64,000 bases of DNA from Daejeonella lutea (GTDB lineage Bacteria > Bacteroidota > Bacteroidia > Sphingobacteriales > Sphingobacteriaceae), in the NCBI RefSeq assembly GCF_900168015.1, contig NZ_FUYR01000003.1, forward strand, positions 62,001-126,000, read 5' to 3'. Numbering within the stretch: the stretch's first letter is position 1; each line of letters begins with the position of its first letter. The position numbers and the translations under genes were made by a program. Below, piece by piece: positions 9,053-63,736 of the stretch. The notes below the pieces were generated by a model. The model made no database searches. It worked only from the letters and a program-made list of their open reading frames with translations, and was not told where the DNA came from.

Positions 9053-10009
9053 CTAAAAAATCGCTTCAGCTATTCGTTTAGTGGGCCCCGGATTACTCAT
9101 GGTATAGAAGTGAAGAACGGGAGCACCAGCTTTCATAAGTTCTTTACATTGCTGGATCATGAATTGAATTCCAACTTCTTTTACCTCTTTCTCTGACTTG
9201 CATTTTAGAATAGCCTCACTCAGATCTTCCGGCAGGTCAATGTGGAATATTTTTGGTAGTGATATTAGTTGTTTTGAAGAAGTTATGGGTTTCAATCCAG
9301 GAATAATAGGCACATTTATTCCATTTTCACGGCACTTTTTCACGAAATCGATATATTTCGAGTTATCGAAGAACATTTGGGTTACGATAAACTCGGCTCC
9401 CATGTCAACCTTTTTTTTCAGAAAACTAAAGTCGGTCTTAAGGTTTGGCGCTTCAAAATGTTTTTCGGGGTAGCCGGCTACGCCAATGCAAAATTGGGTT
9501 TTGAAAGCAGTATCATGATCTTCGTGTAGATAAATACCATTATTCATATTTGCTACCTGTTGCAGCAAATCTGTCGCGTAAGCATGGCCGCCAGGCGTCG
9601 GTATAAAACCAGAATCGGCATGACGGGCATCACCACGAAGCACAAGGACATTATCTATTCCCAAAAACTGAAGATCGATAAGCGCGTTTTCGGTTTCTTC
9701 CTTAGTGAAACCACCGCAGATAAGATGAGGAACCGCATCAACCTTGTATTTATTCATAATGGCCGCACAGATGGCAACGGTGCCTGGACGTTTACGGTAC
9801 GAAACCTTTTCAAGCAAGCCGTTATCGTGTTGTTTATAGATATAGTCTTCGCGATGATAGGTTACATCAATAAAAGGCGGATTGAATTCCATCAAAGGAT
9901 CAATCGCGTCGTAAATTCCCTGGATACTTTGTCCCTTTACTGGCGGGAGGAGTTCAAAAGAAAATAGGGTTTTGCCGGCGGCATTTTGGATGTGTTCTGT
10001 GATTTTCAT
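9053..10009 (-). CDS. metF: Methylenetetrahydrofolate reductase
   Basis: A 318-residue FAD enzyme reducing 5,10-methylene-THF to 5-methyl-THF, the methyl donor for MetH. The catalytic Glu lies in FSFELLPP near residue 19, and GIDNVLVLRGD carries the Asp that interacts with FAD. The ATG at 10009 gives the family's usual N-terminus [19 protein letters not shown] and overlaps the metH stop codon by one base (TAATG), which indicates translational coupling. A longer reading from 10036 lies inside metH and is not supported. Expression should follow the SAM riboswitch upstream of metH. Confidence 0.96.
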   Translation of the reverse strand: MKITEHIQNAAGKTLFSFELLPPVKGQSIQGIYDAIDPLMEFNPPFIDVTYHREDYIYKQHDNGLLEKVSYRKRPGTVAICAAIMNKYKVDAVPHLICGGFTKEETENALIDLQFLGIDNVLVLRGDARHADSGFIPTPGGHAYATDLLQQVANMNNGIYLHEDHDTAFKTQFCIGVAGYPEKHFEAPNLKTDFSFLKKKVDMGAEFIVTQMFFDNSKYIDFVKKCRENGINVPIIPGLKPITSSKQLISLPKIFHIDLPEDLSEAILKCKSEKEVKEVGIQFMIQQCKELMKAGAPVLHFYTMSNPGPTKRIAEAIF

Positions 10010-13000
10010 TAATAACTCAAATTGGGGCTTAACCACCTTTCCACATCTTCCAGCGGCATCTTTTTCCTTACCGCATATTCTTCAACCTGGTCCTTGTTAA
10101 TTTTTCCAAGCCCGAAGTAACGTGACTGCGGATGGGCAAAATAAAATCCACTGACCGCTGCTGTCGGGAACATTGCGAAGCTTTCGGTAAGGTGAATTCC
10201 TGTTGTTTTTTCGGCGTCGAGAATTTCAAATAAAGTCGCTTTTTCTGTGTGGTCCGGACATGCAGGATAACCTGGGGCAGGTCGGATTCCCGCATACTTT
10301 TCTTTTATCAGTTCTTCATTTGAAAGAGTTTCATCTTTTGAGTAAGCCCAAAATTCTTTCCGCACAAGTTCATGCATCCGTTCTGCGAATGCTTCAGCTA
10401 AACGATCCGCCAGGGCTTTAACCATGATGCTGTTATAGTCGTCATAATTCTTTTCATACTCTGCGACCAATTCATCAACGCCTATTCCTGTTGTCACTGC
10501 GAAACCTCCCCAATAATCTGCAACTCCGGATTCTTTAGGTGCGACAAAATCAGAAAGCGCATAGTATGGCTCCCCAGCAGCTTTTTCAGCTTGCTGCCGA
10601 AGAGTGTGGATAGTCCTGAATACTTCTGTCCTGCTTTCGTCTGTATAAAGCTCGATGTCATCGCCTACAGAGTTTGCTGGCCAGAAACCTATTACTCCGT
10701 TTGCTTTCAAGCTTTTGCCTTTTACTAGTTTATCAAGTAGCACCCTTGCTTCGTCGTATAATTTTTTTGCCTCCACTCCGACAAACTGATCGTCAAATAT
10801 CTTAGGGAAACTTCCGCGTAACTCCCAGGTATGAAAGAACGGTGTCCAGTCGATATAAGGGACTAATTCATCGAGTGAAAAGTCTTTGAAAACTCTGGTT
10901 CCGATGAATGCTGGCCTGGGTGCAATCGATCCATTGAGATCGATCTGGAATTTCTGCGCTCGAGCTTCTTCTATTGTTTTAAATCGCTTATCTGATTTTT
11001 TGCTTAGGTGAGCTTCTCGCGCTTTTGTATATTCATTATGGATCCCAGTAATATACTCCTCCTTATTTTCATCACTCATGAGGGTGCTGCATACGGTTAC
11101 ACTTCGTGAAGCATCAAGAACGTGAACCGTCGGCCCCGAATAATTCGGAGCAACTTTTACAGCTGCATGGATTCGGGACGTTGTTGCTCCACCAATGATC
11201 AGTGGAATATTAAACCCTTCACGCTCCATTTCCTTGGCAAAGTGAACCATCTCGTCGAGAGAAGGAGTGATCAAACCACTGAGACCAATGATATCAACTT
11301 TTTCCGCCTTTGCGGTTTCGATGATCTTTTGTGCCGGCACCATAACGCCTAGATCAATCACCTCAAAATTATTACAGGCAAGTACAACACCAACGATATT
11401 CTTGCCAATATCATGAACGTCACCCTTTACTGTTGCTAGTAATATTTTACCAGCATTTTTACGCTGATTGCTGTCAGCATTATTTAATTTCTCTTCTTCT
11501 ATAAAGGGCAGTAAATAGGCAACAGCTTTTTTCATTACCCTCGCAGATTTTACAACCTGCGGCAGGAACATCTTACCCTGTCCAAACAGATCGCCGACAA
11601 TACCCATACCGTCCATTAGCGGGCCTTCAATCACCTCGAGAGGCTTCGCATATTTCTGACGGGCTTCTTCCACATCATCATCCAGGTAATCTATAATTCC
11701 TTTTACAAGAGAATGCGACAAACGGGATTCAACGCTTTCTTTGCGCCACTCCTCGTCTTTCACCATTACCTTACCCTTGGTTTTAATTGTCTCAGCGAAA
11801 TCAACCAGGCGTTCAGTTGCATCTGGTCGGCGATTTAATAGAACGTCTTCTACCAGTTCCAGCAAATCTTTAGGTATCTCTTCATAAACTTCAAGCATGC
11901 CCGCATTCACGATCCCCATATCCAGACCAGCTTTAATAGCGTGATAAAGAAATGCAGAGTGCATTGCCTCACGGACCGTATTGTTTCCTCTGAATGAGAA
12001 TGAGATATTACTTACACCCCCACTTACTTTAGCGAGAGGTAGATTTTGTTTTATCCATCGTGTTGCCTCGATAAAGTCCACAGCATAATTATTGTGTTCT
12101 TCGAGACCGGTTGCGACAGTTAGAATGTTTGGATCGAAAATGATGTCCTGCGGCGGGAAGTTAACTTCGTTCACGAGTATATCATATGAACGCTTACAGA
12201 TCTCTTTTCTTCTTTCAAGTGAGTCAGCCTGCCCGTTTTCGTCAAATGCCATCACAACCACGGCAGCACCGTATTGAGCAATTTTCCTGGCTGATTTGAT
12301 AAATGCTTCTTCCCCTTCTTTCAGACTAATTGAGTTGACGATACCTTTTCCTTGAAGGCATTTCAGTCCAGCCTCAATAACCGACCATTTAGAGGAGTCG
12401 ACCATGATCGGAAGTTTTGAAATGTCAGGTTCTGACGCGATTAGATTAAGGAATTTAACCATCGATGCTTCTGAATCGATCATTCCCTCGTCCATGTTTA
12501 CGTCAATGATCTGTGCACCGCCCTCAACCTGCTGACGTGCAACAGAGAGTGCTTCTTCAAAATCACCGTTCAAGATCAATTTTGAAAATTTTGGTGATCC
12601 GGTAATGTTTGTACGTTCGCCAATATTCGCAAAATTGGTTTCCGGAGTCATCGTAACCGGCTCCAATCCACTTAGTCTTAAAAATGGCTCCGGCACCGGA
12701 GGAACCCTCGGTGGGAATTTCGCAGCTTTCTCAGCGATGCATTTAATATGCTCAGGTGTGGTACCGCAGCATCCGCCGACAACATTTACAAAGCCGCTGG
12801 CCATGAAATCTTCTACCAAATGAGCTGTTTCATGAGGTAGCTCATCATAGGCACCAAACTCATTTGGTAATCCTGCATTTGGATATGCCGAGATATAACA
12901 TCCGGCTTTTTGAGACAACTCTTCGATGTGCGGCCGCATATCTTTAGCTCCTAAAGCGCAATTAAGCCCAATACTTAAAAGATTCGCATGGCTCAGAGAA

Positions 13001-13680
13001 TTCAAAAACGCTTCAACGGTCTGGCCAGATAAAGTCCTTCCGCTGGCATCTGTGATAGTGCCAGAGATCATAATCTCTATTTTTTTACCGATTTCGTTTT
13101 CATAATTCTTAGCCGCAAAAAGTGCCGCTTTGGTAATTAATGTGTCAGTGATGGTCTCGAACAAAAGTACATCTGCACCCCCATCGATCAGGCCTTTTAT
13201 TTGTTCGTAATAGGCGTCGACCAGTTCATCAAAAGTTACAGCACGATATCCCGGATCATTCACATCGGGCGACATAGAAGCCATTTTGGTAGTTGGGCCC
13301 AAAGCTCCGGCCACAAAACGTGGCTTATCAGGATTTTTCAAAGTGAATTCATTAGCAACTTCTTTTGCTATTCGCGCCCCTTCAAAGCTCATTTCATAAG
13401 AAAGATCTTCCATTTGATAATCAGCCATGGAGATACGCTGTGTGCTAAACGTATTTGTCTCGATTATATCTGCCCCAGCCTCCAGATATTCGGCATGGAT
13501 AGCTTTTATAATATCCGGACGGGTAATATTCAAAAGGTCGTTATTACCCCGTACATCACAGGGGTGATCTTTAAATCGTTCTCCACGAAAATCCTCTTCT
13601 GTTAGCTGGTAACGCTGGATCATCGTCCCCATCGCACCATCGATTACCAGAATGCGTTTTTTTAGTTCTTCTCTTATCAT
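10009..13680 (-). CDS. metH: Cobalamin-dependent methionine synthase
   Basis: A full-length 1223-residue MetH that methylates homocysteine to methionine using 5-methyl-THF and cobalamin. The homocysteine domain has the zinc cysteines Cys241, Cys304 and Cys305; the pterin-binding domain starts near residue 350 ([13 protein letters not shown]); the cobalamin domain carries DVHDIG at 754-759 with the Co-coordinating His756; and the C-terminal AdoMet activation domain starts near 890-900. All four modules are intact. It forms an operon with metF. A SAM-I riboswitch lies 163 bp upstream, so transcription should fall when S-adenosylmethionine is plentiful. Confidence 0.98.
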
Positions 13681-13815
13681 GTAAGTATCAAGTATCAGGT
13701 ATCAAGTATCAAGTGTCAAGTATAATGTATCAAGATCGGGCATCATAAGACATGATGAAGCGTGTCAAAGGGCAATTCGAATATGTCTTGATACTTAATA
13801 CTTGTTACTTGCTGA
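13681..13815. repeat. Degenerate word dyad (TATCAAG family) in the metH leader
   Basis: The left arm (13684-13734) is about seven imperfect copies of an AGTATCA/TATCAAG word; the right arm (13785-13813) is the reverse complement (CTTGATAC, TTAATACTTG). The arms flank about 50 nt of unrelated sequence. The element lies between the SAM riboswitch and the metH start, so in the metH transcript it would form a long irregular hairpin next to the start codon. It belongs to the intergenic dyad family described in the findings. Confidence 0.8.
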
Positions 13816-13842
13816 TCAAAAAGTCGGTATTATTGACCTTAA

Positions 13843-13941
13843 CTTATCTGTTCCCGAAATATTCGGGATAGAATGTAGCACCTTGTTAGCACAGGTTGCT
13901 AAGACTTCGCAGGGTCTAATCCCTCCGTCTTTCTGAATAAG
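13843..13941 (-). promoter_or_regulatory. SAM-I riboswitch (S-box) upstream of metH
   Basis: On the minus strand the segment begins CTTATTCAG and ends GATAAG, giving the P1 helix CTTAT(T/C)/GATAAG. Between these are the conserved SAM-I core blocks GACGGAGGGATTAGACCC, GCGAAGTC, TTAGCAACC, AAGGTGCTACATTC and a final hairpin CCCGAATATTTCGGG. The order and spacing match the SAM-I aptamer, which binds S-adenosylmethionine. The expression platform is not obvious: no GC-rich terminator follows, and the next 160 nt is the TATCAAG dyad, so the switch may act on translation or on that structure. It controls metH-metF. Confidence 0.93.
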
Positions 13942-13988
13942 CAGTGCAAAGGTGGGTGATTTTTTGCTGAAAAGCAAATTTGGCTATC

Positions 13989-14117
13989 TGTTACCAGCTT
14001 TCAGTTGCCAGGCTGGATGCATAGGCAAGTGCCCAATATAGTTATTCGGTACTTATTAAGCTTTAACAGCGTTTAGAAATCCACTTTGCCTGGCAACAGG
14101 TAACGGGTAACTTGCAA
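13989..14117. repeat. Degenerate word dyad with boundary motif, 3' of the Bax-inhibitor gene
   Basis: The left arm (13989-14016) holds TGTTACCAG, TTTCAGTTGCCAGGC; the right arm (14087-14117) holds GCCTGGCAACAGG, GTAACGGGTAAC, TTGCAAC, its reverse complement in degenerate form. Just before the right arm is AGCGTTTAGAAAT (14068-14080), the boundary motif shared with the 56-59 kb arrays. The right arm ends where the neighbouring gene's stop codon begins. Confidence 0.75.
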
Positions 14118-14855
14118 CTACTTCCTTCCTCCAAACAACCTCAACAACATAATAAACAAATTAATAAAGTCAAGGTACAAGGTCAATGCACCCATAATTA
14201 CCATTTTGTTTGCCGAAGCGTCGCCGTATTCAATTCCGGCAGCAATTCGTTTCAGTCGCTGCATGTCGTAAGCAGTGAGGCCGATGAAAAGAGCTACACC
14301 GATGAAGCTGATTATATAATCAAGTTGGCTACTGCCTAAAAAGAAGTTCACAAGGCTCGCAACAATGATACCCACCAGGGCCATCATAAGAATTGAACCG
14401 AATTTAGTTAAATCCGTGTTGGTAGTGTAACCCGCAATGGCCATTACAGCAAATAGAACTGATGCAGAAATAAAGCAGCCCAAAACCGATGCAGACGTAT
14501 ATACCAAAAGAATATAACTTAAGCTGATACCTGTGGCAGCTGAATAGAGCACGAACACCAGGGCCAATACGGGGAATGACAATCTGTTTAATCCAAACGA
14601 CATCAGCAGCACGAACGCCAATGGGGCGAACATCGCAATTGTTCCTAGTCCGGTTCTACTTCCAGTTGCGGGATCAATAAGTAATCTTAACAAGCCTGCA
14701 TCTGTCGAAAAGAAATATGCAAAGCCGGCTGAAAGTCCCAGTGCAATAAACATCCAAAGGAAAACATTTGGAAGAAAGTTCCTGGACGTGATTGTACCAC
14801 CGCGTTGTACTAATGGATTTTGATCGAATTCAAATGCGTTTCTTACTTCTGGCAT
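14118..14855 (-). CDS. Bax inhibitor-1/YccA family membrane protein
   Basis: A 245-residue integral membrane protein with seven hydrophobic segments and the BI-1 family character: a short polar N-terminus (MPEVRNAFEFDQNPLVQRGG), and a C-terminal helix LYLDFINLFIMLLRLFGGRK. The Asp in LYLDFINLF corresponds to the conserved C-terminal aspartate thought to matter for pH-dependent Ca2+ leak in bacterial homologues. Bacterial members (YccA, YbhL, BsYetJ) are inner-membrane proteins; YccA binds FtsH. It lies 33 bp downstream of an unknown gene on the same strand. Confidence 0.92.
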   Translation of the reverse strand: MPEVRNAFEFDQNPLVQRGGTITSRNFLPNVFLWMFIALGLSAGFAYFFSTDAGLLRLLIDPATGSRTGLGTIAMFAPLAFVLLMSFGLNRLSFPVLALVFVLYSAATGISLSYILLVYTSASVLGCFISASVLFAVMAIAGYTTNTDLTKFGSILMMALVGIIVASLVNFFLGSSQLDYIISFIGVALFIGLTAYDMQRLKRIAAGIEYGDASANKMVIMGALTLYLDFINLFIMLLRLFGGRK

Positions 14856-52296: not shown

Positions 52297-53520
52297 ATGA
52301 AAATGACCTTAATCCTAACCTTCCTTCTGGCTGTTTTCGCTGCATGCAGCAATACTGATCTTCCAAAAGAAAAAGCTGATTCTGCTAAGATTGCAAACCA
52401 GACTACTCGTCAGGCGGCTATTATTACCGGTGCACAACAGGTCGATAAATACCTGCCCATGCTGAAAGGCAAAAAGGTGGCGCTGGCTATTAACAACACT
52501 TCGGTAATCGATGGCAAACTTAGTATGGATACCTTGCTGAAGCTAGGAGTGAACATCGTCAAAGGTTTCGGTCCTGAGCATGGATTCCGCGGAAAGGCCA
52601 GTGCAGGTGCAAAAATAGGTGATGAAACAGACGAGAAAACCGGCGTGCCTCTCATATCCTTATACGGCTCAAAATACAAGCCTACAAAGGCAGATATGCA
52701 GGGAATAGATGTCATGGTCTTCGATATGCAGGATGTTGGCGTTCGCTTCTACACTTATCTTTCAACACTGCATTACATTATGGAAGCCTGTGCGGAGAAT
52801 AATGTTGATCTGATCGTTCTTGACCGCCCGAATCCTAACGACGGCTATGTTGACGGACCCGTTCGCGAACCTGATCAGGAATCATTCGTCGGAAAGCACG
52901 CAATTCCAATCCTTCACGGTCTTACATTTGGTGAATATGCCGGTATGATCAATGGGGAAGGCTGGCTTCCGGGAAAGGCGAAAAGTAAGCTGACCGTGAT
53001 TAAAATGCAAAACTATAACCACGGTAAACCATACATTCTCCCTATTGCACCCTCACCAAATCTAAATACACAGCAATCCATACTACTTTATCCTTCATTG
53101 TGCCTTTTTGAAGGTACAGTGATCAGCCAGGGGCGTGGAACTCTATATCCTTTCACCGTTCTTGGCAATCCTGAACTGAAAGGTAAATATGACTTCTCGT
53201 TCAAGCCAGTTTCTATACCCGGAATGAGTGAAAGTCCACCGCATATGGACAAAGATTGTTACGGAATTGATTTGAGAACGTACGACACTGGTACTTTTGC
53301 AAAAACCGGACGGATCAACCTTACCTGGCTCAAGCAGTTCTACGCAGATTATCCTAATAAAGCACAGTTCTTTCGTGCGGCAAACTTTGATCGGCTGGCT
53401 GGTACTAGCAAACTTAGAACCCAGATCATCGAAGGAAAATCTGAAGAGGAGATCCGTCAAAGCTGGGAACCGGCTTTGGGGCAGTATAAGGAGACGAGGA
53501 AGAAGTATCTGCTCTACTAG
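52297..53520 (+). CDS. Exo-beta-N-acetylmuramidase NamZ-type (DUF1343) lipoprotein
   Basis: A 407-residue DUF1343 protein. NamZ releases terminal N-acetylmuramic acid from peptidoglycan fragments. Residues 1-17 form a lipoprotein signal (MKMTLILTFLLAVFAAC, Cys17); the catalytic-loop signature GPEHGFRG is at residues 92-99 and the family block QDVGVRFYTYLSTLHYIMEA near 145-165. It should sit on the periplasmic or outer-surface side and could feed MurNAc to a pathway ending in MurQ at 15.5 kb. Confidence 0.87.
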   Translation: MKMTLILTFLLAVFAACSNTDLPKEKADSAKIANQTTRQAAIITGAQQVDKYLPMLKGKKVALAINNTSVIDGKLSMDTLLKLGVNIVKGFGPEHGFRGKASAGAKIGDETDEKTGVPLISLYGSKYKPTKADMQGIDVMVFDMQDVGVRFYTYLSTLHYIMEACAENNVDLIVLDRPNPNDGYVDGPVREPDQESFVGKHAIPILHGLTFGEYAGMINGEGWLPGKAKSKLTVIKMQNYNHGKPYILPIAPSPNLNTQQSILLYPSLCLFEGTVISQGRGTLYPFTVLGNPELKGKYDFSFKPVSIPGMSESPPHMDKDCYGIDLRTYDTGTFAKTGRINLTWLKQFYADYPNKAQFFRAANFDRLAGTSKLRTQIIEGKSEEEIRQSWEPALGQYKETRKKYLLY

Positions 53521-53670
53521 TTGACAGTTGACAGTGGACGGTTGACAATGTCGTTCTGACGAATAAACCGTCAACAAGATTTCTCTTTTCATGAATAAAA
53601 CGTGTGTCGAACCGATTAGGTACGTATGCTAACTGTCAACTGTCAACTGTCAGCTTTGAACTGTCAACTT
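53521..53670. repeat. Degenerate word dyad (GTTGACAGT family)
   Basis: The left arm (53521-53549) is GTTGACAGTTGACAGTGGAC followed by GGTTGACAATG; the right arm (53637-53670) is AACTGTCAACTGTCAACTGT followed by CAGC and GAACTGTCAAC, the reverse complement in degenerate form. The centre (about 90 nt) shows no obvious structure. It fills the spacer between two plus-strand genes. Confidence 0.8.
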
Positions 53671-53710: not shown

Positions 53711-56458
53711 ATGTCCCTGAGATATTGTCTCTCCCTGCTTATTTTTTTCCTGTTGGCAACGGTAGCGATCGCTCAGCCAAAAATCACGGGATTCGCACCA
53801 AATCGCGGACCGGCAGGGATTAACGTTACCTTGGTTGGAAATTTCAACGCTGTACTTACAAATAACATAGTCTATTTTGGTGCTGTTAGGGGGCGTGTAA
53901 TTGGTGGTTCGCTTTCTACATTGCTTGTAAACGTTCCGCCGGGAGTAAGTCACGAGGCAGTATCAGTTTTAGATATTGCTACGGGTTTAACTGGATTTGC
54001 AAGACATCCATTTGTGATGAACTACAACGGAACATCCAGTCTTACTCCTGCTTCTTTTCCCAGCAGAAATGACTTCGCTGCACAAAACAATATAACAGGA
54101 ATTGCGATTGCAGACCTCAACAACGACCCTAAGCCTGACATCATCACGGCCAATGGTAGTTCGCTCAATATCTCTGTTCTTCAAAATGCTAGCTCCGTAG
54201 GCAGTGTTAAATTTAACACGCATATCGACTTCCCCATTTCTTCCTCAGGCATTCTGGGGGCTATTGCTCTTGCCGACTTCGATGGCGATGGTCGCAAAGA
54301 TGTTGTAGTTGCAAATGTTTCGCAGAACAAGATCATTGTTTTAAAGAATGTAACTACTAGTCAGGGGCCTGTAAATTTCACTAACAAGATCGAATTTGAA
54401 ACAGGTAATGAGCCGCATTCCATAGCCACTGCAGATTTTGACCTGGATGGGAAGATTGACATAGCAGTTTCAAATACGAAGTCTGGAACAATATCGGTAT
54501 ACCGTAATATTTCCAGCCCCCAGGCCATCGACTTTGCCTCAAAAGTGGATGCACAATCTGGCGGAAATGTGAAAGGCATTTCACTGACCGACGTGGATGC
54601 CGACGGCCGGGTAGATATTGTGGCAGCGAATCAGCTCCCAAGTGGTATATCGGTAATTCGTAATATAGGGAATTCAAATATTGGTTTTGCACTACGGTTT
54701 GATTTCCCCGGAGGTAGTCAGTTGGAAGATATTGCAGCTGGCGACATGAATGGTGATGATCAGATTGACGTGGTGTCTACCAGTAAAGGGAACCCGGTGA
54801 ACAATGTGACAATTTTCCGGAATACCAATAACGTAAAGTTGATGAGCTTCCTTCCCGGCCCTGATCTTTCTACAAATGCTTCCGCAATCGGTGTAGATCT
54901 GGCTGACCTTAACGGAGACAGCTATGTCGATATAGGCATTGCAAACAATTCATCAAACAGTATTTCGTTATTCAGCAACATTGGAACGGGTGGCAATATG
55001 GTCTTTGAGCCTCCGGTAAATTATGCAGCCGGTCAGAATCCGGGACCAATTGCCATGTGCGATTTTGATCTTGATGGGAAAACTGATATTGCAGTAGCGA
55101 ATAGCGGCAGCAATCTTGTGTCGGTTTATCTTAATGAAAATTCTCCCTGTCCCACAAAAGCAACTTTGGGCGGATCCGAATGCATTGGCGGAAAACTGTC
55201 CGTGAGTTCCAGTCAGCCTCCTACCGCAATTTCCTGGCTCCTTAACGGACAAACGATTGCTGGTCAACAGGGAGCCGATCATACGATCCTCAAGACAGGA
55301 AGCTACACAGCAGTGGTAACCTTTGCCGGTGGATGTTCTGTAACAACGAATCCTGTTTGGATAGGAGAGAATAAAGCCGAAGTAAAGCTCACGGTAAATT
55401 CTGCAGCCTTATGCTCGTCCACTACATCGGTATTTAACGTATCAGCAGCGGGGGCAAGCGCTGCAACCATTTATCAATGGAAAATAAATGGAGTTAATTC
55501 AGGAGTGCTAACCACTTCTGTTACATTCTCGCCCACTGGTTTAAAGGTTGGCGATCAGGTGAGCGTTGAAGCCTTCGTAGCAAATGCTTGCGGGACGATA
55601 TTCCCTGCTGCCAGTAACGTCATCACTATGACTCCTCCTTCTTTAGAGGCGCCTGCAATTATCATCCGGACAGACAACACAGAGGTCTGTACTGGCGCGA
55701 ATGTCATATTTACACTTTTGGCAACTTATGCCGGCTCAGCTCCGTCCTACCAATGGATGCGAAATGGAGTAGCCATACCCGGAGCTACTGCTGGTATCTT
55801 AAATATAAGCCAGCTCGCTGATGGCGACCGGATCAGCTGTGACGTAACGAGCAATGATCCCTGCCAGGCAATTACCCAGGCCAAAAGCAATGAGATAAAG
55901 ATCGCTATCATGTCGACTCCAGCGCCAGAGATTACTATCATGAGTAATGCGAAGCTTGTCTATAATGGGGCTGCAGTCACATTCACAGCATCCACACAAA
56001 ACGCAGGGCCTCAGCCGGAGTATGAATGGCTGGTTAATGGAATAAAGTCGGGAACTAATGCCCCTGTTTTTGTTACCCGTGAATTGCAGGAAGGGGATGT
56101 GGTAGAGTGCCGGCTGCTAAGCAACTTGAACCTTGCATGTAAAGGAATTGAAACTGTCTTATCAAATGCTATCGCGATTTCGATCACCGACATTACAACA
56201 GTTGAGCCGCCTAGCGCTTTTTCGCCAAATGGCGATGCAGTAAACGATACCTGGGAGATCCCTGGAATAAGTGCCTTCCCCGAAAGCCGGATTAAAGTGT
56301 TCAATCGCTACGGATCAGAAGTCTACAATTCTGTCGGCTACGAAAAACCCTGGACTGGAGAGTATAATGGCGCAGTTATCCCCGTCGGCGTATATTACTA
56401 CTGGATAGTTCTTGGTAATGGAACCACGGTTAAAGGGAATGTGACGGTGTTGAGGTGA
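53711..56458 (+). CDS. FG-GAP repeat protein with T9SS type B (gliding motility) sorting domain
   Basis: A 915-residue secreted protein with signal peptide MSLRYCLSLLIFFLLATVAIAQ. An IPT/TIG-like domain covers about 25-105. Seven FG-GAP/VCBS-type calcium repeats follow (DLNNDPKPDIITAN, DFDGDGRKDVVVAN, DFDLDGKIDIAVSN, DVDADGRVDIVAAN, DMNGDDQIDVVSTS, DLNGDSYVDIGIAN, DFDLDGKTDIAVAN), then Ig/PKD-like modules to about residue 830. The C-terminus is the CHU_C/gliding motility-associated domain (SAFSPNGDAVNDTWEIPG, IKVFNRYGSEVY, VGVYYYWIVLGNG) that directs secretion by the type IX system. It should be a large surface adhesin or matrix protein. Confidence 0.9.
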   Translation: MSLRYCLSLLIFFLLATVAIAQPKITGFAPNRGPAGINVTLVGNFNAVLTNNIVYFGAVRGRVIGGSLSTLLVNVPPGVSHEAVSVLDIATGLTGFARHPFVMNYNGTSSLTPASFPSRNDFAAQNNITGIAIADLNNDPKPDIITANGSSLNISVLQNASSVGSVKFNTHIDFPISSSGILGAIALADFDGDGRKDVVVANVSQNKIIVLKNVTTSQGPVNFTNKIEFETGNEPHSIATADFDLDGKIDIAVSNTKSGTISVYRNISSPQAIDFASKVDAQSGGNVKGISLTDVDADGRVDIVAANQLPSGISVIRNIGNSNIGFALRFDFPGGSQLEDIAAGDMNGDDQIDVVSTSKGNPVNNVTIFRNTNNVKLMSFLPGPDLSTNASAIGVDLADLNGDSYVDIGIANNSSNSISLFSNIGTGGNMVFEPPVNYAAGQNPGPIAMCDFDLDGKTDIAVANSGSNLVSVYLNENSPCPTKATLGGSECIGGKLSVSSSQPPTAISWLLNGQTIAGQQGADHTILKTGSYTAVVTFAGGCSVTTNPVWIGENKAEVKLTVNSAALCSSTTSVFNVSAAGASAATIYQWKINGVNSGVLTTSVTFSPTGLKVGDQVSVEAFVANACGTIFPAASNVITMTPPSLEAPAIIIRTDNTEVCTGANVIFTLLATYAGSAPSYQWMRNGVAIPGATAGILNISQLADGDRISCDVTSNDPCQAITQAKSNEIKIAIMSTPAPEITIMSNAKLVYNGAAVTFTASTQNAGPQPEYEWLVNGIKSGTNAPVFVTRELQEGDVVECRLLSNLNLACKGIETVLSNAIAISITDITTVEPPSAFSPNGDAVNDTWEIPGISAFPESRIKVFNRYGSEVYNSVGYEKPWTGEYNGAVIPVGVYYYWIVLGNGTTVKGNVTVLR

Positions 56459-56459
56459 G

Positions 56460-56634
56460 GAACGTTATACGTTATACGTTGTACGTTATACGTTCACGTG
56501 TTAATGCTTAAGTTATTGGTTGTAAGTGTAAAGTATAATACAGTTTATAGTAACTTCCAACTTCCAACCTACAACCTACAACTCTTTCCAAGCGTCTAGA
56601 TACGTACAACGTATAACGTACAACGTACTACTCC
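56460..56634. repeat. Nested degenerate word dyad (ACGTTATACG family)
   Basis: Outer arms: AACGTTATACGTTATACGTT and GTACGTTATACG on the left (56461-56492), ACGTACAACGTATAACGTAC and AACGTAC on the right (56602-56628). Each arm ends at a boundary motif: GTTCACGTGTTAATGCTT (56492-56509, reverse) and AGCGTCTAGATAC (56591-56603, forward). Inside is a second dyad with other words (GGTTGTAAG / CCTACAACCTACAAC). The element separates a plus-strand and a minus-strand gene that converge. Confidence 0.82.
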
Positions 56635-57273: not shown

Positions 57274-57664
57274 AGTTGACAGTGGACAGTTGACAGCGAC
57301 GAGGGATTTCAACCTGACGTACCTTCTCAGATTTAAATTCTCACTACTAAGTTAATCAATGCGAATAACTTTTAATGCGTTTAGAAACAGTCAACTCTCA
57401 ACTCCTTTGCAGCGTTTAGTAATTATCAACCGTCCGCTAGTTGGAGCGTTTAGAAACTGTCAACCGTCAACTTTCAACTGTCCACTAGTTGGAGCGTTTA
57501 GAAACTTTCCACTTTCCACTTTCCACTATCAACCGTCCACAAGTTGCAGCGTTTAGAAACTGTCAACTGTCAACCGTCAACTTACAACCGTCCGCTAGTT
57601 GGAGCGTTTAGAAACTTTCCACTTTCCACTTTCCACTTTCCACTGTCAACCGTCAACCGTCCAC
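57274..57664. repeat. Tandem boundary-motif array with variable word blocks
   Basis: The most elaborate repeat. A short left arm GTTGACAGTGGACAGTTGAC (57274-57294) faces a long right array in which the motif AGCGTTTAGAAAC recurs at 57377, 57411 (diverged), 57445, 57493, 57548 and 57603. Between motif copies are 34-55 nt made of CCGTCAAC, TTCAACTG, TTTCCACT words in different numbers and combinations. Three copies are preceded by CTAGTTGG and one by CAAGTTGC. It lies upstream of the minus-strand HxlR gene's 3' end and beyond DUF1349's start, with no coding frame. It looks like an array that grows by copying whole motif+word units. Confidence 0.85.
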
Positions 57665-57669
57665 TGACT

Positions 57670-58092
57670 TTAGTTCTGCTTAAGAATATACCTTTCCCTC
57701 GCCTCCAGCACCGCCTTCATATTATCATTCGCCCAGTTCGATAAACTAATAAGCTCGACTACCAAACTCCTGCCGAGGGTTGTTAATTCATATTCAACTT
57801 TTGGTGGGATCTGAGGGAATATGGTGCGCGTAACAAATCCGTCTTCTTCAAGGGTCCGGAGAGTTACAGTCAGCATTCTTTGTGAGATGCCTTCAACCTG
57901 ATTCTTGAGTTCAGTAAACCGCAGCTTATCACTCTTACCTAATATGATCAGGGTATGCATAGTCCACTTATCGCTTATCCGCGCCAGCACATCCGTAATG
58001 GGACAATCATTTGTCTTTTTGACGTCACAAAAGTGATTTATGATTTCTTCCTTGCTGCCTTTTTCGGCTAATTCTCCATTAGTTACCTTCAT
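57670..58092 (-). CDS. HxlR family transcriptional regulator
   Basis: A 140-residue HxlR-type winged helix protein: CPITDVLARISDKWTMHTLIILGKSDKLRFTELKNQVEGISQRMLTVTLRTLEEDGFVTRT. HxlR proteins are small DNA-binding regulators that often control nearby oxidoreductases in response to aldehydes or redox stress. The gene is divergent from a nitroreductase-family gene and shares its 93-bp promoter region, where both strands have -7 elements and an AGTTACT/AGTAACT dyad. Confidence 0.9.
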   Translation of the reverse strand: MKVTNGELAEKGSKEEIINHFCDVKKTNDCPITDVLARISDKWTMHTLIILGKSDKLRFTELKNQVEGISQRMLTVTLRTLEEDGFVTRTIFPQIPPKVEYELTTLGRSLVVELISLSNWANDNMKAVLEARERYILKQN

Positions 58093-58119
58093 ACAACTGG
58101 GTATTATTAGTGTTCCTTA

Positions 58120-58167
58120 TTGTGTAGTCCAAAGTTACTAAATAATTTTGAGTTATTAAAAGTAACT
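58120..58167. promoter_or_regulatory. Divergent promoters and HxlR operator
   Basis: On the plus strand, TTG (58120-58122), 20 nt and TAATTTTG (58143-58150) form a promoter for the nitroreductase gene. On the minus strand TAACTTTG (58137-58130) is a -7 element for hxlR. The imperfect dyad AGTTACT (58133-58139) / AGTAACT (58161-58167), with further A/T symmetry inside, covers both -7 elements and is the likely operator. Confidence 0.68.
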
Positions 58168-58185
58168 AACATATCAGGAATAACC

Positions 58186-58827
58186 ATGGATATCATATCA
58201 ACATTGAACTGGCGGCATGCTGCAAAAGCGATGACAGGCGCCACTATCCCACAGGAAAAAATAGACGTAATTTTAGAAAGCATCCGCTTGTCGGCTTCAT
58301 CAATGGGTTTGCAGCCTTACAAGGTTATAGTGATAAGCGACAAGGAGCTGTTAGAAAAGATAGAACCAATCGCGATGAATCAACCTCAGATCTCTAAAGC
58401 TTCACACCTGATAGTGTTTGCAGCCTGGGAACGCGTAACTGAATCGCATGTGGATGCTTTTATTAAAAATATGGCTGATGTCCGCAATGTCGAAGAATCG
58501 TCACTTGCACAGATGAGAGCTTACGGGATGAATATGGTGGCACAGTCGCCGGAGGATAGTTTCAGGTGGACAGCCCGTCAAACTTATATCGCACTGGGTA
58601 CCGCACTTGTTGCCGCCGCTTCCGTGCAGGTTGACAGCACCCCCATGGAGGGTTTTTATAACGACCAGCTTGATGAGTTGCTGGGATTGAAGGAGCTGGG
58701 TTTAAAGAGCGTCTCCATCTTACCATTAGGATACAGGGATGAGGAAAAGGATTGGCTGGCGCCGCTGAAAAAGGTTAGGACGCCGAAGGAGGAGTTGTTT
58801 GTATTTGATGAGGAATTGGTAGGTTGA
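58186..58827 (+). CDS. Nitroreductase-family oxidoreductase
   Basis: A 213-residue FMN-dependent oxidoreductase of the nitroreductase superfamily. The start is ATG 58186 (MDIISTLNWRHAAKAMTG); an upstream in-frame position at 58120 would add residues unlike the family. FMN contacts are visible in the RHAAKAMTG and SASSMGLQPYKVIVI stretches, with GTALVAAASVQVDSTPMEGF and the final SILPLGYRDEEKDWLAPLKKVRTPKEELF. It is probably regulated by the divergent HxlR. Confidence 0.9.
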   Translation: MDIISTLNWRHAAKAMTGATIPQEKIDVILESIRLSASSMGLQPYKVIVISDKELLEKIEPIAMNQPQISKASHLIVFAAWERVTESHVDAFIKNMADVRNVEESSLAQMRAYGMNMVAQSPEDSFRWTARQTYIALGTALVAAASVQVDSTPMEGFYNDQLDELLGLKELGLKSVSILPLGYRDEEKDWLAPLKKVRTPKEELFVFDEELVG

Positions 58828-58829
58828 GT

Positions 58830-58990
58830 TTTACGTTGTACGTGATACGTTATACGTTTTCTAAACGCTGCGAAAAAGTTACCGATAACTATAGACGTTT
58901 ACACGTGAACTTATAACGTATCACGTACAACGTATAACTTTAAGCGTTAACACGTGAACGTACAACGTATCACGTAAAACGTACAACTTT
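58830..58990. repeat. Degenerate word dyad (ACGTTATACG family) with boundary motifs
   Basis: The left arm (58831-58855) has TACGTTGTACGTGATACGTT followed by the reversed motif GTTTTCTAAACGCT (58856-58869). After a 24-nt centre, the right side has the motif GACGTTTACACGTGAAC (58894-58910), words TATAACGTATCACGTACAAC and GTATAAC, the motif again as AGCGTTAACACGTGAAC (58943-58959), and words GTACAACGTATCACGTAAAA and CGTACAAC to 58990. It separates two plus-strand genes. Confidence 0.82.
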
Positions 58991-61384: not shown

Positions 61385-63361
61385 ATGACAAGATTTTTTT
61401 ATTCCAGTTCTATTAGTTCCTTTTTAGAAGCACCAGAAAATGAAATACTCGGAATCCTTGCCAAGAATAATGAATTCGCGCTAGAGCAAACACAACGAGA
61501 TGCTTGGCAACAGGAAATTGAAATACTAAAGACTTCGCTAAAGTCATTTACAGGGGGGGTGTTCTTTGAGTACGCCATTCCAAGAATGGGACGAAGGGTG
61601 GACGTTATACTAATTATTCAAAGTGTGATATTTGTTGTCGAATTCAAAATTGGAGAAAAGGATTTTCTTTCTAGCGCTATCGACCAAGTATGGGATTACT
61701 CGCTTGATCTGAGAAATTTCCACGAGACCAGCCAGAATAATTTAATTGCTCCAATTTTAGTTGCAACTGCAGCAAGATCCATTCCTTATAATCTCTATGA
61801 AGATACTGCAAACGATAACTTATTGGTGCCGATAAAAGCAAATTCTACTACTCTTACCAGTAGCATCGAAAACGTACTGTCCGTTTCGAAAGGTAACCCA
61901 ATCTTTATGGAAGAATGGAGCAATGGTAGATATTCACCCACACCGACCATTATTGAAGCTGCAATTGCGCTATATAGCGAACATTCAGTAATCGATATAT
62001 CAAGGAGCGACGCTAGTGCTATTAATTTAACTGAGACAAGTAATGCTGTTTCAGAAGTTATTCGGGACGCGAAATCTAATTCAAAAAAAGCTATTTGTTT
62101 TGTTACAGGCGTTCCGGGGGCTGGTAAGACTTTAGTGGGGCTAGATATTGCGACACAAAACTTGAGCAAAAATGACAATTCCACTTCAGTATTTTTATCT
62201 GGAAACGGCCCCCTAGTAGCTGTACTCAGGGAAGCATTAACAAGAGACAAGGTTCGAAGGGAAAAACTAAACGGTAATAAAATAACGAAGGGAGAAGCCT
62301 TGCGGGGTGTGAAGACATTTATCCAAAATATACATCATTTCAGAGATGAATGTTTAGTTGATGAGAGTAGGGCTCCCTTTGATCATGTGGCTATTTTTGA
62401 TGAAGCTCAACGAGCATGGGATCAAGTCCAAACGGCAAATTTCATGCAAAGGAAAAAAGGCAAGCCAGGCTTTACTTTTTCCGAGCCAGAATTTTTGATC
62501 TCATGTTTAGACCGTCATAAAGATTGGGCTGTTATTGTTTGCTTGGTTGGCGGAGGCCAAGAAATTCACACTGGGGAGGGAGGCATAGCCGAGTGGATCG
62601 CATCATTAAATCGATCGTTCCCTCATTGGGAAGTGAATATTTCCTCGAGATTGATGGATAGCGAATACGCTGCTGGAAAAGCATTGCAGTTATTCACAAA
62701 CAAGTCGTCTGTTTCCGTGACGGATGAGTTGCATCTTGCAGTTTCGATGAGATCTTTCCGTGCAGAAAATGTATCCCATTTGGTAAAAAGCATATTGGAT
62801 TTTGAAATTACAGAAGCTCAAAAGAACTTAGCATTAATTAAAGACAAATACCCTTTGGTACTTACCAGAGATCTAGCAAAGGCCAAAGCATGGTTAAAGT
62901 CGAACGCTCGTGGAACAGAGCGGTATGGTATTGTTGCTTCGTCGCAAGCTCAAAGGTTGAAACCATATGCGATCGATATTAGAGTTCCCATCGATCCAGT
63001 ACATTGGTTTTTGGATCCGAAAGAAGATGTAAGGTCTTCGTATTATCTCGAAGATGCGGCAACAGAATTCCAAGTGCAAGGTTTAGAATTGGATTGGGCT
63101 TGCGTCACTTGGGACGGTGATTTCCGTTACTCCGATGATGGTTGGGCTCCCTTTTCGTTCGTTGGAGACAAATGGCAAAACATTAAAAAAGAAGCACGAC
63201 AACAATATATCAAAAACGCATACAGAGTCCTTTTGACGAGGGCTAGACAAGGTATGGTGATCGTCGTGCCTTTCGGGAGTAGTGAAGACAACACGAGAAG
63301 GCCGGAATATTATGATGGGACATTTAATTATCTTCAGAGTATCGATTTGGAAATGATTTAG
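61385..63361 (+). CDS. PD-(D/E)XK nuclease + DUF2075 superfamily 1 helicase-like protein
   Basis: A 658-residue fusion. The N-terminal part has the nuclease motif D73 ... E86-x-K88 ([17 protein letters not shown]). The second part has Walker A GVPGAGKT (242-249), Walker [10 protein letters not shown] (334-342, DE at 339-340), a [15 protein letters not shown] motif (386-400) and, near residues 625-640, [19 protein letters not shown], a superfamily 1 motif VI-like stretch, matching DUF2075. Such nuclease-helicase fusions occur in defence islands, but no partner gene is visible within the window. It lies alone at the end of the window with AT-richer coding sequence than its neighbours, consistent with acquisition by transfer. 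Confidence 0.88.
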
Positions 63362-63580: not shown

Positions 63581-63736
63581 GTTCGTACCTCCTTCGTACC
63601 TTGTTCGTCTAACATGCCGTTTAGACTACCGCCAGCGCAATATGAGACGAACATGGTACGAACTTGGACACTACTTGGTACGAAGGAGGTATGGGGAGGT
63701 GGGAGCCTTGATACTTAATACTTGATATTCAATACC
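63581..63736. repeat. Degenerate word dyad (TTCGTACC family) plus TATCAAG words
   Basis: The left arm (63581-63610) is GTTCGTACCTCCTTCGTACC then TTGTTCGTCT; the right arm (63645-63691) is AGACGAACATGGTACGAACT and ACTTGGTACGAAGGAGGTA, its reverse complement in degenerate form. The centre contains GCCGTTTAGACT (63617-63628), which resembles the AGCGTTTAGAAAC boundary motif. A run of CTTGATACTTAATACTTGAT words follows at 63708-63736, identical in type to those at metH. Confidence 0.75.

Follow-up and report, generated by a model that had tools for sequence, protein, structure and literature searches.

In the heptad parS of plasmid pSM19035, a site of contiguous 7-bp words in direct and inverted orientation, each dimer of ParB/Omega (RHH) binds one word, and at least four contiguous heptads are needed for function (PMC9499535). 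Heptamers are also known as chromosomal repeats: arrays of TAACTGA, found in Beggiatoaceae, Cyanobacteria and some Bacteroidetes, have a period of 7, are intergenic, occur within ribosomal-protein operons and show a scattered distribution among species (PMC4679880). Heptamer repeats are known in many bacteria and have no accepted cause. Among other short repeats, REPINs are inverted pairs, intergenic, present in many copies and in tandem clusters, with arms of a single conserved sequence that show compensatory changes, and with an associated RAYT (PMC3116915); the DUS dialects of Neisseriaceae are words used genome-wide by each species, present singly in thousands of copies (PMC3630211); and inverted repeats can be homogenised by template switching (PMC8604942, PMC8794818), which in yeast yields inversion of the spacer between them (PMC8604942).

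Here we describe intergenic arrays of short words, arranged as dyads, from a window of 64,000 nt (G000:C7:62001-126000) of the Daejeonella lutea genome (G000; 4.03 Mb, 10 contigs, 99.98% complete). A T9SS CHU_C domain and the order of the DUF4295 and ftsY genes point to the Bacteroidota. Arrays were sampled in 464 kb of G000 (a 400-kb sample and the window) and in 400 kb of the sister species G003, the genus was represented by at least 20 species (one genome per species), and four independent orthologous sites were read across the genus. As the sequence-only reading had stated, no described repeat with exactly such an architecture was found in the literature searched. Among described repeats the TAACTGA heptamers come closest, and our arrays share with them the period of 7, the position between genes (including those of ribosomal-protein operons) and the scattered distribution, as expected of heptamer simple sequence repeats of the STRR/TAACTGA type; they differ in that TAACTGA is one fixed word in direct arrays, with no dyad or spacer motif described. 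The closest working analogue is the parS of pSM19035, although we do not claim membership. Exactly four words, the functional minimum of that system, make up 125 of the 171 GTTNTAC-type arms in G000 and G003, but the plasmid word is WATCACW rather than GTTNTAC or GTTNTAA, and the plasmid sites lie at promoters and have no spacer motif, whereas here dozens of intergenic dyads are spread over a chromosome and the reader is putative.

Anatomy of the dyads and the boundary motif

Arrays with a period of 7 are frequent in G000 (45 in 400 kb, against none in Markov sequence), while each period from 8 to 13 yields only 0-6 arrays; thus, of the word lengths of 7-9 nt proposed from the sequence alone, 7 is borne out and 8-9 are not. 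In the 400-kb sample and the window together, 58 of 62 arrays are intergenic, though coding sequence makes up 84% of the DNA. Many of them start within approximately 10 bases of a stop codon, a distance that is approximate because genes in the samples were called with a simple hexamer model.

The dominant word in G000 and G003 is GTTNTAC. The word pair GTTNTACGTTNTACGT has 101 matches in G000 (51 forward, 50 reverse) and 133 in G003 (70 forward, 63 reverse), with none for the reversed control in either genome; the G000 matches represent about 41 separate strict loci by hand count, two of them in the window (at 56.46 and 58.83 kb). The commonest form in both genomes is a compact dyad, in which a spacer resembling CTGGGCGGATAGCACAGCGTTTAGAAA stands between four GTTNTAC words and four inverted words, giving an element of about 86 bp with a 30-nt spacer (GT..AC included) composed of modules that are common to the copies. 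In genomes with GTTNTAA words the arms vary from 3 to 13 words, and the four-word rule is clear only in G000 and G003. The word pattern used fixes positions 1, 2, 5 and 6, which leaves positions 3, 4 and 7 as those informative on conservation: position 3 is T in 84% and position 7 is C in 79% of words, while position 4 is free (in G000 A.40, G.35, T.19, C.05).

Single GTTNTAC words outside arrays are not enriched (49 against 40 expected in the whole G000 sample, 36 against 38 in G003), which speaks against the reading as a DNA uptake signal whose species dialects biased transformation maintains. The dialects and the intergenic inverted placement do resemble the uptake sequence dialects (PMC3630211), and words characteristic of a genome are common to both systems, but the Neisseriaceae words act singly and in thousands of copies, and we regard such a signal as a very improbable explanation.

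The boundary motif AGCGTTTAGAAAC, which the sequence-only reading had described as a module kept beside changing words, has 10 matches with at most two mismatches in the 64-kb window, against 1.7 expected, and none of 100 shuffles reaches 10. Its exact 12-mer form occurs 13 times in the whole genome of 4.03 Mb, where the reversed control occurs 3 times. With at most one mismatch it has 16 matches in the array zones of G000, which make up 1.7% of the DNA, and 30 in the remainder, an enrichment of 30-fold (p=4e-17); in G003 the enrichment is 75-fold. These figures confirm its association with the arrays. The proposal that motif and words are separable holds as well: the same motif is joined to GTTNTAC words, to GTTGACA and CTTTCCA words (57.4 kb), to GTTACCA words (14.0 kb) and to CTCTGTG-type words (loci L001 and L002). 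The motif is optional, being absent from the arrays at 13.68-13.81, 28.73-28.77 and 53.52-53.66 kb. After the opposite arm comes a second module, CTGGGCGG. Two candidate markers were rejected: the 12-mer as a genus-wide marker, with about one match per genome outside G000 and G003, mostly not in arrays among the loci viewed, and CTGGGCGGAT, which is too common in all genomes to be specific. At L001 and L002 the motif stands beside arrays that are longer, have a period of about 9-10 and consist of CTCTGTGTC-type words.

Arrays, dyads and boundary motifs in the window
Feature	Position	Strand	Context and remarks
GTATCAA heptamer dyad without motif	13683..13813	.	upstream of metH, below SAM riboswitch aptamer
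Dyad with GTTACCA-type words	13989..14119	.	one boundary motif at 14068-14080
GTTGACA heptamer dyad without motif	53515..53664	.	
GTTNTAC dyad	56457..56633	.	fills gap between convergent stops of T9SS/FG-GAP gene (+) and DUF1349 gene (-)
Arms of the 56.46-kb dyad	56462-56494 and 56602-56631		20-nt perfect inverted match, period 7
Diverged boundary motif AGCGTCTAGATAC	56591..56603	+	adjoins right arm; 2 mismatches
Left arm, GTTGACA words	57274..57296	+	adjoins DUF1349 gene
Six boundary-motif copies	57376..57668	+	copies at 57376, 57411, 57445, 57493, 57548, 57603; TGTCAAC or CTTTCCA words in the inverted array after each copy; motif and arm tandemly duplicated at 34-55-nt spacing, reaching HxlR gene stop
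Left arm GTTTTAC GTTGTAC GTGATAC GTTATAC	58827..58860	+	directly after nitroreductase stop codon
Boundary motif, reverse orientation	58857..58869	-	adjoins left arm 58827..58860
Two right-arm copies	58908..58987 (58908-58940, 58957-58987)	-	49-bp tandem duplication, before TMEM175-family gene
TTCGTACC dyad, period 11, degraded motif	63581..63691	.	weak case, doubtful member

The arrays with inverted arms that had been noted at 13.99-14.12, 56.46-56.63, 57.27-57.67 and 58.83-58.99 kb are all present. A dyad is also present at 63.58-63.69 kb, but with its 11-nt word and degraded motif it is a weak case. The GTATCAA dyad separates the start of metH (10009-13680, - strand) from the SAM riboswitch aptamer (13841-13943, - strand), standing where an expression platform would be; in the sister species this spot has a degenerate array made of different words. 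Elsewhere in the window, the gene at 61385-63361 encodes a Schlafen group 3 helicase domain (PF09848).

Growth of the arrays and pairing of their arms

Comparison of neighbouring words divides the arrays into two groups. Adjacent GTTNTAC words are identical at position 4 less often than expected by chance, both in G000 (0.224 against 0.328) and in G003 (0.252 against 0.321); slippage predicts the opposite and is therefore disfavoured for these dyads. In GTTGANN and GTATCAN arrays, adjacent words are identical far more often than by chance (0.42 against 0.14 and 0.78 against 0.37, respectively), so that the near-identical neighbours typical of heptamer simple sequence repeats are found in these two sets and not in GTTNTAC, and the lengths of GTTGANN arrays fall off from three. 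The array at 57.27-57.67 kb looks like a member of the slippage-like group that has grown also by duplication of motif and arm in 34-55-bp steps. The suggestion of local copying made in the sequence-only reading thus accounts for GTTGANN and GTATCAN arrays, this one among them, but not for the GTTNTAC dyads.

As a general explanation, local mutational growth would have functionless arrays arise by 7-nt slippage and by template switching between arms. It is right for GTTGANN and GTATCAN words, and it can draw on the tandem duplications at 57.27-57.67 and 58.88-58.99 kb, on the variation of the rpsC-rplP site among species (no array, TTAGTAG-type words or GTTNTAC words), and on one orthologous site (L210 and L079) at which the dyad spacers of two species run in opposite directions, an outcome that template switching can produce (PMC8604942). 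However, besides the dissimilar neighbours, the GTTNTAC arms peak at four words, show no covariation, and persist as dyads between species whose synonymous sites are saturated; we consider this explanation unlikely.

The arms of a dyad pair at about six of seven word positions, and dyads often begin directly after stop codons, two features that would suit an mRNA hairpin acting in processing, stability or termination. The free base does not bear this out. At position 4, the arms of one dyad match no better than permuted partners (0.315 against 0.324, p=0.64, 31 dyads), and whole words match no better between the arms of one locus than between different loci (p=0.46 and 0.17). That the free base is unmatched between arms argues against both a selected RNA hairpin and arm-to-arm copying. 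Comparison with an offset of one word gave 0.419 in one of the two directions, and the arms are well matched at some loci (58.83 kb, L174 and L084), so that arm copying may occur occasionally. Compared with inverted repeats homogenised by template switching, the dyads are alike in the spacer inversion, seen once, and differ in that their arms are not homogenised on average.

Mismatches on the sense strand comprise 10 G.T and 16 A.C, with no bias to G-U, and in 26 tandem dyads the sense strand is not more stable than the antisense (p=0.40); in the rplP-rpmC gap it is the antisense that folds more stably (p=0.02, for related and hence not independent species). The Rfam search gave no match on the arrays. 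The arm and folding results thus speak against a selected mRNA hairpin, which we consider hardly credible, and against the earlier idea of an RNA-structured repeat. The other earlier idea, a transcript-end structure, does not agree with the position of dyads inside essential operons, i.e. in rpsC-rplP, rplP-rpmC and rpmB-rpmG, nor with the separate terminator found beside the dyad in the DUF4295-ftsY gap. Intrinsic terminators, in which a hairpin with a T run ends a transcription unit, were rejected as a class for these elements, dyads being found within ribosomal-protein operons.

Orthologous sites, word dialects and possible mobility

About 10 G000 dyads have a dyad-bearing orthologous site in G003, although only 33% of four-fold degenerate sites are identical between the two genomes. 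Of the four sites read across the genus, three are gaps in ribosomal operons. In the rpsC-rplP gap several species have a small hairpin without an array, six have TTAGTAG-type words, and G000 and G003 have GTTNTAC. The rplP-rpmC gap carries an array in nearly all species, with differing words. In the rpmB-rpmG gap most species have a dyad, whose locus-specific second word, GTATTA, is the same in most of them (GCATTA in G003); at position 7, the left-arm words have A in most relatives, whereas G000 and G003 have C in all four. In the DUF4295-ftsY gap (L308, L309 and relatives), G000 has a GTTNTAC dyad and G003 a GTRATCR dyad beside the terminator, with none seen in the others, which shows that these dyads were gained independently and hence that dyads can arise anew.

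The distribution of words among genomes forms a set of dialects. GTTNTAC pairs are absent from G002, G008, G009, G012, G015, G017 and G018, which instead carry GTTNTAA (12 to 79 pairs), while neither G000 nor G003 has the TTAGTAR pairs that are common in G001, G002, G009 and G017. The switch of dialect is incomplete: G000 has 31 GTTNTAA pairs, and the left arm at rplP-rpmC is still of the GTTNTAA type in both G000 and G003. These two genomes are slightly GC-richer than their relatives; GC pressure as the cause of the change from A to C at position 7, however, would be expected to act on the word's remaining AT positions as well.

One rival is a non-autonomous mobile repeat of about 86 bp (REPIN- or MITE-like), which a transposase would have dispersed in the ancestor of G000 and G003, both species having its copies by descent. 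It would explain why the words are genome-specific, why the compact form is so uniform (a 30-nt spacer flanked by four words on each side, its modules recurring from copy to copy), and why two gaps that measure 222 and 273 bp in G000 are 24 and 48 bp long in G003. However, the check for a REP-associated transposase proposed earlier came out negative for G000: the Y1/RAYT family (PF01797) has no match in this 99.98% complete genome and one in G003. Moreover, position 4 varies far more than positions 3 and 7, unlike the decay of copies of one master, position 7 was changed in place at rpmB-rpmG, and no target duplication was seen. With REPINs in particular, the dyads share the intergenic inverted pairs in many copies and in tandem clusters, but here the words vary, and membership was rejected on the RAYT result and on the lack of arm covariation at position 4. 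On balance we find a mobile repeat rather unlikely, if deserving of some weight.

A putative reader of seven-base words

An unread base, a fixed number of contiguous words, the use of one word on both strands with no constraint to pair, and a species-wide spelling that was altered in place at rpmB-rpmG favour a trans-acting, sequence-specific DNA-binding protein. Our tentative preference, which stops short of calling it probable, is that the GTTNTAC dyads are dispersed arrays for a putative protein reading 7-bp words. The period of 7, the four-word arms, the free fourth base, the absence of arm covariation, the retention at orthologous sites and the word dialects are observed features; the protein, its cooperativity and the function of the dyads are what we infer from them. 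The protein would load side by side on the four contiguous words of each arm, the two arms being inverted around a spacer in which CTGGGCGG and AGCGTTTAGAAAC are often present, and would leave the fourth base of each word unread. The word would be a dialect, with word and reader changing in step from species to species: GTTNTAA for most of the genus and GTTNTAC for G000 and G003. The likeliest job of such a protein may be nucleoid or centromere-like organisation rather than control of promoters or operators, because the sites lie between genes inside operons and not at promoters. The other word families may be older or relaxed arrays, expanding by ordinary slippage and local duplication.

Against a binding protein we count that the four-word length is specific to G000 and G003, that the dialect switch is incomplete, that some arms are well matched, and that new dyads appeared at DUF4295-ftsY. 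With still more reserve, we suggest that these elements might form an undescribed class, defined by dozens of intergenic chromosomal dyads of 4+4 words per genome, a lineage-specific reader, and a dialect that changes in concert and in place. For heptamer repeats in general, the genus separates two causes, as one set of words behaves as slippage and another, with its fixed length, free base and dialects, as expected of protein sites. The question is thereby made testable, the candidate being a protein whose specificity tracks GTTNTAA versus GTTNTAC.

Outside the genus, we also found a CTTCTAA heptamer array common to the Chryseobacterium loci L052, L055, L057, L058 and L059, which suggests that heptamer arrays may be widespread in Bacteroidota.
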